A stretch of DNA of 36,716 nt. It comes from Spirochaetaceae bacterium (GTDB lineage: Bacteria; Spirochaetota; Spirochaetia; DSM-27196; SLST01). The notes beneath the pieces are model-generated. The model was given only the letters and a program-made list of their open reading frames with translations, did no database searches and had not been told where the DNA came from. The DNA is taken from assembly GCA_007118855.1 (NCBI GenBank), contig SKQU01000345.1:1-36716 (forward strand), read 5' to 3'. Both the position numbers and the translations under genes were made by a program. Below, one piece after another: positions 27,701 through 31,987 of this stretch; position 1 is the first letter of the stretch, and each line of letters starts with the position of its first letter.

Positions 27701-28429
27701 TCAGCGCGTGGGCGCCGGGCCTACGAGCGCGAGCATCCCGTGATAGCCGGCGCCCTCGCGTCGAAAGCTGCCCAGTTGCGGCGTGCGAAACGTGCAGTGG
27801 TCAACGACCACCGCGACGATGCCGAGGTTGCGCGCGATCGCGACATTCGCGGCGCGCATGTCAAGGTACGCCTGATCGCCGCGGCGAACAACCGCATCGG
27901 CCCCCCACTTCGAGTACTCCAGCGCCCGAGCCTCGTCGACCGCGTACGAGTCGCCGCTGATGCACGGCCCGCAGAGAGCCAGGAGATCAGCGGGCCGGCT
28001 GCCGTAGCGCCGGGCCATCGCGTCCGCCGCGTCACCAAGGATACCCGTGCCGCGCCACCCGGAATGCACGATTCCGTAGGCGCCGGTACGCTCGTCGGCG
28101 AGCAGAATCGGCATGCAGTCGGCGATCCCCACCGCGAGCGTCGGGCCCCGGGGGCCGCTGACGATCCCGTCCCCCCTGGTGCGCGAGTCGGCCGCGGCCG
28201 TACTCCCCCGGGCGAGCAGGTCGTCGGCACACCGGACGATGCGCGAATGGGTCTGGTCGACCATGCAGACATTCGTCGGGTCGAGCCCCATCGTCCGCAG
28301 CGCCGCGCACCGGGTCGCCAGCGAGCGCATGTCGCCCGCGCCAAGGAGCGTCAGGCGGGCCGGATGCGCGAAGGGAAGGTCGACCCACCCGTACGGCTCG
28401 GCCTCAGCAAGCCGGAGCTCGATCCTCAC
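27701..28429 (-). CDS. pgeF: PgeF/YfiH-family (multicopper-oxidase-fold) purine nucleoside phosphorylase / peptidoglycan editing factor
   Basis: The 242-residue protein has the family's metal-site motifs: D-Q-T-H (about residue 59), V-G-I-A-D-C-M-P-I, H-S-G-W-R-G-T and C-G-P-C-I, with R-R near the C-terminus. E. coli YfiH (PgeF) corrects misincorporated L-Ser in peptidoglycan precursors, and related proteins act on purine nucleosides. Older annotation calls them laccase-domain or polyphenol oxidases. Which activity applies here cannot be read from the sequence. The GTG start overlaps the stop of the DUF5312-like gene (GTGA), so they are coupled. Confidence 0.9.
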   Translation of the reverse strand: MRIELRLAEAEPYGWVDLPFAHPARLTLLGAGDMRSLATRCAALRTMGLDPTNVCMVDQTHSRIVRCADDLLARGSTAAADSRTRGDGIVSGPRGPTLAVGIADCMPILLADERTGAYGIVHSGWRGTGILGDAADAMARRYGSRPADLLALCGPCISGDSYAVDEARALEYSKWGADAVVRRGDQAYLDMRAANVAIARNLGIVAVVVDHCTFRTPQLGSFRREGAGYHGMLALVGPAPTR

Positions 28430-30126
28430 GCGCCCTCGATGCTGGTTTCCGCGCCGAGCAGATCCGACAGGATGCCGGCGGCGGCCTTCGAACGCACGTG
28501 CGCGTCTTCCAGTCGTTTCGCAAAGCCCTCGGGCGATCGTCCGCCGAGCTCGCTCAGGTTGGCGACCGTATCATAGCGCCCGCCCACCGTACCGTAGAGC
28601 ACACCCTCGAGAATCTCGCCGATCAGGTGAAAGGTCTCAACGCCGCGGCGCACCATGGCCGACGCCTCGCCGTCGATCGTCGCGACCAGCGACAGCTGAC
28701 GCTCGCGAGCCGCCTCGGCAGGCAGGGTGTCTTGGCCGCTCTGGGCCCACGCCATCCCGAGATCTCCGGTGGGCCGCAGGCGAACCTCCATGTTGGCGAC
28801 GTCGGTCTGCAAGCGCTTCATCGCATGCCATGCGCGATCCATCTCCGCGCGGTTATCCGCCTTGTAGAACTCGCCGTCGCGGTAGAGCGCGCCGATCGGC
28901 GCGGAGAGCTCGCGCTCGCAGAGCTCCATGCTCGCGCGCAGAATCCCCATGGAAAGCGCGTGGCGAGCCGGCTCGTCGAGCCCGCTCGGCGGGTACCCCG
29001 GAAAAGGCTCTGCACCGCGCAGGCCCAGCGTCGAGACGGCGGTACTCACCACCGCGTCCACCCGGCGCTGGTACGAGTAGCGACGCCACGCATCCTCCGC
29101 GCGATCGCGCCAGAATCCCTTCCAGTGAGCAAACCAGTCCTCACCGCCGCCGGCGGCCGTCGGTCGGTAGTGGACGTTCGCGTGCGCGATCCGCACGAGG
29201 TCGGTGAACGGATACCGGCGCCCGAACTCCCTGATCTCCGTGTAGGCGGCCGCGAGCGACTCAACGTGGCGGCGCACGAGCTCCTCGACAACCTCATCAT
29301 CCTCGTCGAGCCGGTCCTGGTTCTGATAGAGCCCGAGCGCCTCGAAGAGAACCGGACTCGGATCCGGGCGCATACCCTCGTAGACCGCCGAAAGACGCGC
29401 GAGCTCTTCGGCGACTCGCGACAGTGGCGCCGGCACCGGCTCGCCCCCGGCCACCGGCTGAAAGACGGCGATGAGCCGGTCGAAGGGGAAGGCGCTCAAG
29501 GTCATCAACTGATGCAGCACGCGCACGTCGGTATAGATGCGCGACCTGATCTGCGGCGACAGCGTCGAGGTGATGGAATCAACCTCGTTCAGCGCCCGCC
29601 GTCTGACATCCGCGTCCTTCAGTTCCGGCTGCGCTGCTCCTATCCCGAACGGGTCGGTGTCCGCGACGAGCCGCTCCTGGACCTCCGGAGCGTGGATCGA
29701 TGCGAGAAAGGCGACGAAGGCGCGCCGCTCTCGCCCCATGACCCGCGCAAGCACTCCGGCAAACCTCCTCGCCCGCTCCGAGAGCCTGCGGAAGTCCTCA
29801 ACCGAGGCGGGGCGGAATGCCAGCTGCACCGTGTCGAATCCGTGCGGGATCGCGGAGGCGACCTTCCTCGCGAGGTCCCGCAGAAGGTACCCCTCCACGA
29901 CCGAGAGCCTGTCCCGACCGGTGAAGAACGCAAGCAGGAAGATCGCGAACCGTCGAAAGAGCCCCATTCTGCGGTACGACTCCTCGAGGTCGATCACCTC
30001 GTCGTCGGGCAGGCCGTCGTCGGGTTCGGCAATCTTGATTGATGAGGCGATGCGCTCGAGCATCGTCTGCCGTTCGCTCGACGAGAGGCGCGCAACGAGC
30101 TTGTCGAAGACGCTGTAGGCGGCCAT
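28426..30126 (-). CDS. Large conserved hypothetical protein, probable DUF5312 family
   Basis: This 566-residue, mainly helical protein is rich in Arg, Ala, Leu and Glu. A short hydrophobic stretch at about residues 56-70 (L-F-R-R-F-A-I-F-L-L-A-F-F) is the only candidate membrane-associated part; there is no signal peptide. The N-terminus (F-D-K-L-V-A-R-L-S-S-S-E-R) and overall character fit DUF5312, a spirochaete-restricted family of unknown function, recalled from memory and not checked. The predicted promoter (30136-30164) would start transcription within a few bases of the ATG, so the mRNA may be nearly leaderless. It is coupled to pgeF through a GTGA overlap and is divergent from the cimA unit. 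Confidence 0.75.
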   Translation of the reverse strand: MAAYSVFDKLVARLSSSERQTMLERIASSIKIAEPDDGLPDDEVIDLEESYRRMGLFRRFAIFLLAFFTGRDRLSVVEGYLLRDLARKVASAIPHGFDTVQLAFRPASVEDFRRLSERARRFAGVLARVMGRERRAFVAFLASIHAPEVQERLVADTDPFGIGAAQPELKDADVRRRALNEVDSITSTLSPQIRSRIYTDVRVLHQLMTLSAFPFDRLIAVFQPVAGGEPVPAPLSRVAEELARLSAVYEGMRPDPSPVLFEALGLYQNQDRLDEDDEVVEELVRRHVESLAAAYTEIREFGRRYPFTDLVRIAHANVHYRPTAAGGGEDWFAHWKGFWRDRAEDAWRRYSYQRRVDAVVSTAVSTLGLRGAEPFPGYPPSGLDEPARHALSMGILRASMELCERELSAPIGALYRDGEFYKADNRAEMDRAWHAMKRLQTDVANMEVRLRPTGDLGMAWAQSGQDTLPAEAARERQLSLVATIDGEASAMVRRGVETFHLIGEILEGVLYGTVGGRYDTVANLSELGGRSPEGFAKRLEDAHVRSKAAAGILSDLLGAETSIEGA

Positions 30127-30213: not shown

Positions 30214-30242
30214 TTGACAAACGATGGTCCGGTGCCCATTAT
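30214..30242 (+). promoter_or_regulatory. cimA: Promoter of the cimA attenuator
   Basis: A perfect -35 TTGACA (30214-30219) is followed after 17 bp by CATTAT (30237-30242), four of six with the key A2 and T6 present. The predicted +1 is close to 30249, the G of the leader-peptide GTG. It is divergent from the promoter at 30136-30164. Confidence 0.6.
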
Positions 30243-30248
30243 GACAAG

Positions 30249-30329
30249 GTGACGAACCAGCTCATCATTTCCAGCCGCACTCTCATTATCGACGTGATTA
30301 TTGGAGACGACCACGCGCAGGAAGTGTGA
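30249..30329 (+). CDS. Isoleucine-rich leader peptide of the cimA attenuator
   Basis: A 26-codon ORF from GTG to TGA. Residues are M-T-N-Q-L-I-I-S-S-R-T-L-I-I, then D-V-I-I-G-D-D-H-A-Q-E-V. Ile codons occur as three tandem pairs (30264-30269, 30285-30290, 30297-30302), twice preceded by Leu and once by Val; four of six are ATT although the genome is GC-rich. This composition is that of branched-chain amino-acid leader peptides. The start is uncertain: no ribosome binding site is correctly spaced, and the predicted transcription start coincides with the GTG, so it may be read from a leaderless mRNA. The ORF ends 19 nt before the terminator stem and its last codons supply the antiterminator arm. 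Confidence 0.75.
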   Translation: MTNQLIISSRTLIIDVIIGDDHAQEV

Positions 30330-30365
30330 GCAGAATCTGCTGGGGCAGAGGCCGCCTTCCTGACG
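30316..30365 (+). promoter_or_regulatory. cimA: Antiterminator of the cimA attenuator
   Basis: CAGGAAG (30318-30324), inside leader codons 24-26, is complementary to CTTCCTG (30356-30362). Bulging A30363 adds pairs 30317-30364 and 30316-30365. The helix uses the inner arm and loop of the terminator, so the two structures exclude each other. A small hairpin, AGCAG-AAT-CTGCT (30329-30341), fits in the antiterminator loop. A ribosome stalled at the Ile codons leaves CAGGAAG free; one at the stop codon covers it. Confidence 0.65.
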
Positions 30366-30382
30366 GGAGGCGGCCTTTTTTT
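30349..30382 (+). terminator. cimA: Attenuator terminator before cimA
   Basis: AGGCCGCCTTCC (30349-30360) pairs with GGGAGGCGGCCT (30365-30376) over 12 bp with one G-U pair and a TGAC loop. Seven T (30376-30382) follow. The cimA ribosome binding site AAGGAGG begins at 30391, so the terminator lies between promoter and gene, as in an attenuator. Confidence 0.92.
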
Positions 30383-30403
30383 GGTCTGCAAAGGAGGACA
30401 GAT

Positions 30404-31987
30404 ATGGCAGGCAGGAGAGTCGAGATCTTCGATACGACGCTGCGGGACGGCATGCAGGGGCTCGAGATCAACTACACGCTCGAGGACAAGCTGCAGATAG
30501 CGCAGGAGCTCGACGCGATGAGGATCGACTACATTGAGGGCGGCTTCCCGCTGTCCAACGAGAAGGAAGCGGGGTTCTTCCGCGAGGTCAGGAAGCTCAG
30601 CTTCACGCATTCGACGGTCTGCGCCTTTGGATCGACCCGGCGCCCGGGGGCGAGAGCGGACCGGGACCCGAACGTCACCGCCCTGCTCGACGCGGAAACC
30701 CCCGGGGTGGTGGTCGTGGGCAAGAGCTGGAGGGCTCACGTGGAGAAGGTCCTCGGCACCGACGACGAGGAGAACCTGCGCATGATCGCCGACTCGATTG
30801 AGGTCCTCAAGAAGGAGGGCCGCCACGTGATCTTCGACCTCGAGCACTTCTTCGACGGATACCTCGACAAACCGGAGTACTCGATCCGGGTGCTCGAGGC
30901 GGGAACCGACGCGGGAGCCGACGCGCTCGTCCTCTGCGACACCAACGGCGGAACCCTGCCGTCGGTCGTCTCGAGGATCTATGAGGAGCTGCCCCGTGAT
31001 CGCCTCGCGCCGCTCGGCGGCCACTTCCACAACGACTGCGGTACCGCCGTGGCGAACTCACTCGCCGCGCTCGAGGCCGGCGCCGCGCAGATCCAGGGGA
31101 CCATAAACGGATGGGGCGAGCGCTGCGGCAACGCGAACCTCTGCGTCTTCATCCCCAACGCGGTCATCAAGCTCGGGTACGAGCCGTCGTGCGCCGAGCG
31201 CCTCTCGCACCTGACCTCGCTGAGTCGGTTCGTCTCGGAAAAGGCGAACGTGATCCCGGACAAGCGACAGCCGTACGTGGGCACCGCCGCCTTCAGCCAC
31301 AAGGCGGGCCAGCACGCGGACGTACTCGCCAAGGCCGACTACCTGATGGAGCATATCGACGCGGCCCTCGTCGGCAACGAGCGCAGGATACTGCTGAGCG
31401 AGCTCGCCGGGAAGAGTACCGTCGTGGAGAAGCTGTCCAAGTACGGGAGCTTCACCAAGAACGACGAGGTCGTGAGGCAGCTCATCGCGGTCCTCAAGGA
31501 GAAGGAACGAGACGGGTACGAGTACGAGGCGGCGGAGGCGAGCTTCGATCTCCTCGTGCGCCGGGCGCTCAACCGGTACGAGCCTATCGTGCGGATCCGC
31601 AACTACCACCTCGAGAGCTACAAAGCGTACGAGACACCGTCCAAGACGGTAGGAAGGATCTTCATGCAGGCGCACGGGCGCGAACTGATGGGGGCGGCAG
31701 TGGGGATCGGGCCGGTTGAGACGCTCGATGCGGCGCTCCGCGATGCGCTCGTGCCGCACTACCCCTTTATCTCGAAGATCAGCCTCACCGACTACCGGGT
31801 TCGCGTCTTGAACCCGGAACGCGCCTCAGCGGCTAAGGTGCGGGTGTTCATCTCGTCGACCGACCACGAAGGCCGCACCTGGGACACCGTTGGTGTGGAT
31901 GAGAACATCGTCGAGGCGAGCTGGGAGGCTCTCGTGGACAGCCTGGAATACTACTACAACGAGTTCGCCTGCGAGGTCCCTGACTGA
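30404..31987 (+). CDS. cimA: (R)-Citramalate synthase
   Basis: This 527-residue enzyme of the isopropylmalate/citramalate synthase family joins pyruvate and acetyl-CoA to citramalate, the first step of the threonine-independent isoleucine route. The TIM barrel starts with F-D-T-T-L-R-D-G-M-Q (catalytic Arg14, metal-binding Asp15). It carries the metal-binding H-x-H in G-G-H-F-H-N-D and the G-W-G-E-R-C-G-N-A-N stretch. A C-terminal LeuA-type regulatory domain covers about 380-520. The size and G-M-Q after the barrel start fit the CimA class (about 530 residues). The Ile-rich leader supports the isoleucine pathway over leucine. ATG at 30404 has AAGGAGG 6 nt upstream. Its last 34 bp overlap carB on the other strand. 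Confidence 0.9.
   Translation: MAGRRVEIFDTTLRDGMQGLEINYTLEDKLQIAQELDAMRIDYIEGGFPLSNEKEAGFFREVRKLSFTHSTVCAFGSTRRPGARADRDPNVTALLDAETPGVVVVGKSWRAHVEKVLGTDDEENLRMIADSIEVLKKEGRHVIFDLEHFFDGYLDKPEYSIRVLEAGTDAGADALVLCDTNGGTLPSVVSRIYEELPRDRLAPLGGHFHNDCGTAVANSLAALEAGAAQIQGTINGWGERCGNANLCVFIPNAVIKLGYEPSCAERLSHLTSLSRFVSEKANVIPDKRQPYVGTAAFSHKAGQHADVLAKADYLMEHIDAALVGNERRILLSELAGKSTVVEKLSKYGSFTKNDEVVRQLIAVLKEKERDGYEYEAAEASFDLLVRRALNRYEPIVRIRNYHLESYKAYETPSKTVGRIFMQAHGRELMGAAVGIGPVETLDAALRDALVPHYPFISKISLTDYRVRVLNPERASAAKVRVFISSTDHEGRTWDTVGVDENIVEASWEALVDSLEYYYNEFACEVPD

Follow-up and report, generated by a model that had tools for sequence, protein, structure and literature searches.

The region upstream of cimA

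We call the window the whole stretch of DNA analysed here, 36,716 nucleotides from a Spirochaetaceae bacterium. It contains the gene cimA, identified as a citramalate synthase gene by a curated NCBIfam equivalog model whose cut-off is exceeded, and the product carries the LeuA_dimer regulatory domain. The gene is apparently monocistronic: carB is convergent with it and a DUF5312 gene is divergent. This divergent neighbour (28426-30126, minus strand) encodes a DUF5312 protein (PF17239, 306.7 bits). The features of the cimA region, all on the plus strand, are the following:

30214-30242, plus: promoter, TTGACA, 17 nt spacer, CATTAT; near-consensus and directed at cimA
30249-30329, plus: leader open reading frame, from GTG at 30249 to TGA at 30327-30329; 26 codons, VTNQLIISSRTLIIDVIIGDDHAQEV, with the succession LII, LII, VII
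30264-30269, 30285-30290 and 30297-30302, plus: three regulatory Ile-Ile pairs, in frame within the leader
30260-30272, plus: segment 1 (protector), paired with 30320-30331 in the minimum-energy fold of the ribosome-free leader
30317-30332, plus: segment 2 (5' arm of the antiterminator), covering the final codons of the leader together with its stop
30347-30364, plus: segment 3 (5' arm and loop of the terminator), able to pair with segment 2 or segment 4
30365-30382, plus: segment 4 (3' arm of the terminator and seven-T tract)
30391-30398, plus: Shine-Dalgarno sequence of cimA, AAGGAGGA, of the ordinary type, with a conserved GAGGA
30404-31987, plus: cimA, citramalate synthase, 527 aa (TIGR00977, 586.5 bits, cut-off 450)

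A sequence-only reading of this DNA had described a 26-codon open reading frame with three tandem Ile-Ile pairs, followed at 30349-30382 by a 12-bp terminator with seven T, and we found both exactly there. Shuffles lead one to expect 0.26 in-frame Ile pairs in such a leader, against the three observed; two of these are preceded by Leu and one by Val. Comparison with the leaders of two or three close relatives shows no loss among the six Ile codons, one synonymous change apart; of the 20 remaining codons, 8 are conserved and 12 now specify another amino acid. The TTGACA and CATTAT boxes of the promoter are likewise kept in L016 and L017. The GTG lies 6 nt past the -10 box, so that transcription is expected to start at this codon or next to it (about 30249), and the open reading frame would apparently be leaderless. 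In model organisms GTG is a weaker start than ATG, which we counted against the reading as an attenuator.

The arms of the terminator (30349-30360 and 30365-30376) form 12 bp including one G-T, or extend over 30347-30378 when an A-T extension is included, and the T tract occupies 30376-30382. In shuffles of the 451-nt region, 0.2 terminators of this kind are expected by chance. The sequence-only reading had also proposed a helix excluding the terminator, with its 5' arm in the last leader codons at 30316-30324. Such a helix exists and is perfect over 7 bp (30318-30324 with 30356-30362), and its arm does lie in the last codons; its extent has to be corrected, since the arm continues through the stop codon. 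The longer duplex, between 30317-30332 and the 5' arm of the terminator, reaches -17.8 kcal/mol against -11.1 in shuffles, which means that in the window alone the antiterminator beats chance only moderately (p 0.02). A partition-function model puts the antiterminator at about 60% in the untranslated RNA of the window, so that the safeguard provided by segment 1 looks weak here. The whole 36.7-kb window contains one such attenuator only.

Distribution and start of the leaders

When genome contigs were scanned for the cimA protein, 80 loci came back, almost all of them from spirochaetes. At 31 loci, counting the window's own copy, a terminator with its T tract lies directly upstream of cimA and is preceded by an open reading frame with a run of Ile or other branched-chain codons. 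An Ile-Ile pair is present in every one of these leaders except L073, which together with L036 and L050 fits the description least well. At 12 further loci the leader stands before leuA, which is placed between the attenuator and cimA (leuA was assigned by curated models in 8 cases, in genomes of the genus in two, and by position only in L056 and L058). A leuA-cimA leader is present in the cultured species Alkalispirochaeta alkalica (DSM 8900, L078). No attenuator was found in the examined flank of the cimA loci L034, L048, L059, L061-L063 and L075-L081. A quick tree built from 71 cimA proteins places the window in a clade of 32 rows, 31 of which have the element; in this clade the cimA-only and leuA-cimA forms alternate several times. 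The element is absent from several deep spirochaete branches. Conservation across the clade extends to the runs of Ile codons, to the terminator and to where the alternative arm lies. The mean number of in-frame regulatory pairs is 3.37 per leader against 0.72 in shuffles (best of three frames), an enrichment reaching p<=0.05 in 35 of 41 loci; these codon counts are partly selected, because the loci were picked for a terminator and an Ile-rich open reading frame, a bias from which the coevolution test described below is free.

For the 47 leaders with enough upstream sequence we took the best promoter and looked for the start codon. An in-frame ATG or GTG is found 4-11 nt past the -10 box, mostly at 6-9 nt, in 40 of them, where 4.7 would be expected, and the spacing is alike for cimA, leuA-cimA, leuA and trpE leaders. 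This points to leaders that are apparently translated as leaderless mRNAs. One may imagine that attenuation proceeds in the same way from a short 5' untranslated end with an ordinary start, as might be the case of the few leaders starting 12-19 nt past the -10 box and of L036, where a Shine-Dalgarno sequence is possible; the position of the start codon in the 40 leaders makes this fairly unlikely.

Codons, helices and the proposed switch

The 31 cimA-only leaders contain on average 5.5 Ile, 1.7 Leu and 1.4 Val codons, the 12 leuA-cimA leaders 4.6 Ile and 5.1 Leu. Pairs of Leu codons occur in 11 of the 12 latter and in one of the 31 former (Fisher p 2e-8, a value which is only indicative as the loci are related), and on the quick tree the switch between the two kinds of leader is seen in at least three separate places. 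The genome of the window also has a stand-alone leuA (L002:336-510, contig C106), upstream of which we found a Leu-run leader, MTGSAGAVCNLRGLLLALLRLAVCEGSAMRN (with GLLLALL), and a terminator; this leader, apparently leaderless, is kept in three relatives (L116, L117 and L118). In two members of the genus trpE is preceded by a leader ending in WWWA with hairpins downstream (L138, about 860-1005, and L137, minus strand), its start codon lying 8-9 nt past the -10 box. Hence, as judged by comparing these loci, codon identity follows gene content: Ile for cimA, Leu and Ile for leuA-cimA, Leu for leuA, Trp for trpE. The ilvB, ilvC and ilvD regions within the genus yielded no attenuator. In two spirochaete MAGs (L065 and L067) the leaders before leuA-cimA, apparently leaderless, are very dense in Ile and Leu, for example MKNSIIIITIILLLGNIILIGKDNISEG.

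These counts bear on the question of whether the attenuator senses Ile alone or, like the ilv leaders of E. coli, responds to Leu and Val as well. The Leu or Val preceding each Ile pair of the window, and the LL found besides IIII in L018, would agree with a broader sensor. However, we consider it quite unlikely, given how few Leu and Val codons the cimA-only leaders hold, an LL pair being present in only one of them, and given that Leu rises in the leuA-cimA leaders, which places Leu codons where leucine is relevant.

The competing helices were examined in two ways. Dinucleotide shuffles of single antiterminators give p<=0.05 in 11 of 31 loci; at single loci such tests are weak because of the high G+C, and we therefore used a swap test, in which the stop-codon region of each of 33 representative loci is paired with its own terminator 5' arm and with foreign ones. 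The antiterminator arm binds its own partner at -16.4 kcal/mol and those of the others at -13.2 (z -7.0, or -8.5 when composition is controlled), while a control segment, the neighbouring Ile run, shows no effect (z +0.3). The early leader (segment 1) prefers its own segment 2 as well, with a z of about -4. This argues that the mutually exclusive antiterminator is maintained by coevolution of its arms. A lack of conservation of the Ile codons or the pairing in relatives would have refuted the sequence-only reading by its own standard; both proved to be conserved.

Second, we calculated the state of the RNA for given ribosome positions, combining the partition function with geometry and assuming that the ribosome covers 13 nt past the first base of its A-site codon. 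In 41 of 49 leaders the antiterminator is predicted to predominate when the ribosome stands at the last regulatory codon, and in none of the 49 when it stands at the stop codon; for the window the values are 0.87 and 0.00. Within this model, then, the arm is masked once the ribosome has reached the stop codon and stays free while it stands at the last Ile pair, as had been suggested from the sequence. The trpE leaders do not match this exact geometry of stop codon and antiterminator; their arms are probably arranged in another way.

That the leader is worked by a riboswitch that binds a ligand, by a T-box or by an RNA-binding protein, the short open reading frame being incidental, appears most improbable: the sole features shared with such elements are the terminator and the competing helix, Rfam leader families stay below threshold in the window and 12 relatives, no aptamer is conserved, conservation being limited to the regulatory codons, the arm and the terminator, and codon identity tracks gene content. 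The best Rfam match, rejected like any known leader, T-box or riboswitch, is BcKCsr2, a Burkholderia small RNA reported to be iron-responsive, at 20.8 bits against a threshold of 40; it probably reflects chance or a resemblance to the terminator. It is hardly credible that the hairpin is a plain, unregulated terminator separating cimA from the promoter region of the divergent DUF5312 gene. Insulation of cimA is something that a strong terminator could provide by itself, but this one lies downstream of the near-consensus promoter directed at cimA and would stop the gene's own transcript, and the coevolution of the arms and the Ile runs would be left unexplained.

We propose that the region is, with high probability, a ribosome-mediated transcription attenuator which senses charged tRNA-Ile and controls cimA, its leader being translated leaderless. 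Transcription would start at the GTG or next to it and the leader would be read as a leaderless mRNA. With ample Ile-tRNA the ribosome would reach the stop codon and cover segment 2, segments 3 and 4 would pair, and transcription would end at 30382. With scarce Ile-tRNA it would pause on an Ile pair before reaching segment 2, segments 2 and 3 would pair, no terminator would form and cimA would be transcribed. If no ribosome is present, segment 2 would be partly held by segment 1. What the sequences establish is the parts, their conservation, the coevolution of the arms and the match between codons and gene content; translation of the leader, its start site and the response to isoleucine are what we infer. 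As far as sequence can show, the attenuator is real and functional, which supports the interpretation first given to this region; missing from it were the leaderless architecture, the protector helix between segments 1 and 2, and the parallel Leu and Trp leaders.

Relation to known attenuators

The ilvGMEDA, ilvBN, leu and trp attenuators of E. coli follow the same logic, in which the ribosome stalls or passes, with segments 1-4 and an intrinsic terminator. Their leader mRNAs begin with an untranslated stretch that holds a Shine-Dalgarno sequence, and E. coli makes its isoleucine from threonine; we know of no attenuator there with cimA as its target. The spirochaete segment 2 differs from theirs in overlapping the leader stop codon.

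Closer in design is ilvBNC of Corynebacterium glutamicum (leader peptide MTIIRLVVVTARRLP; PMC11857589), which likewise has a leader with branched-chain codons and a terminator/antiterminator switch, and whose transcription starts one nucleotide from the leader start codon, without a ribosome-binding site, resembling what is predicted for the spirochaete leaders. It differs in belonging to Actinomycetota and targeting ilvB, in its demonstrated valine-dependent control, its 292-nt leader region and its three-hairpin model (PMC11857589). The trpLE(G) system of Sinorhizobium meliloti (PMC7298713) likewise combines a leaderless open reading frame, tandem codons for the end product and a terminator switched by the ribosome, and resembles the trpE leaders of L137 and L138; however it responds to Trp rather than Ile, in an alphaproteobacterium, and the RNA and peptide set free have additional effects in trans. 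In ilvB1NC of Mycobacterium tuberculosis (PMC13236596) branched-chain codons also lie in a short upstream open reading frame and the antiterminator is hidden by a ribosome that has reached the stop codon; here the codons are LVVI, the target is an actinobacterial ilvB, and the mechanism was tested experimentally.

The regulator is of a known kind: classical ribosome-mediated attenuation, with a leaderless leader. A survey of 2010 knew leader-peptide systems only from Proteobacteria and Actinobacteria, and added Firmicutes (PMC2965389). Our literature search, which covered papers readable without subscription, found no attenuator of this kind in spirochaetes or for cimA, in keeping with the sequence-only reading, which knew of none. 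PMC4833913 cites a further survey of attenuation, that of Lopatovskaya and colleagues. In the literature covered, this phylum, this target gene and so consistent a leaderless design seem to be undescribed.

Somewhat short of an even chance, in our estimate, is a wider reading: that these leaders form a widespread leaderless attenuator system of spirochaetes, whose codons are replaced as operons split or join, and in which the missing 5' untranslated region is integral to the switch. Initiation by the ribosome would then be tied directly to the emergence of the 5' end of the RNA. The switch is widespread in Spirochaetota and its target is the entry step of the pyruvate-citramalate route to isoleucine; the change of leader codons with the gene content of the operon makes it a natural experiment. 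Another spirochaete, Leptospira interrogans, has many leaderless transcripts (PMC5243855), so these leaders would offer a defined system in which to ask how a ribosome gets onto a leaderless RNA in time to control RNA polymerase.
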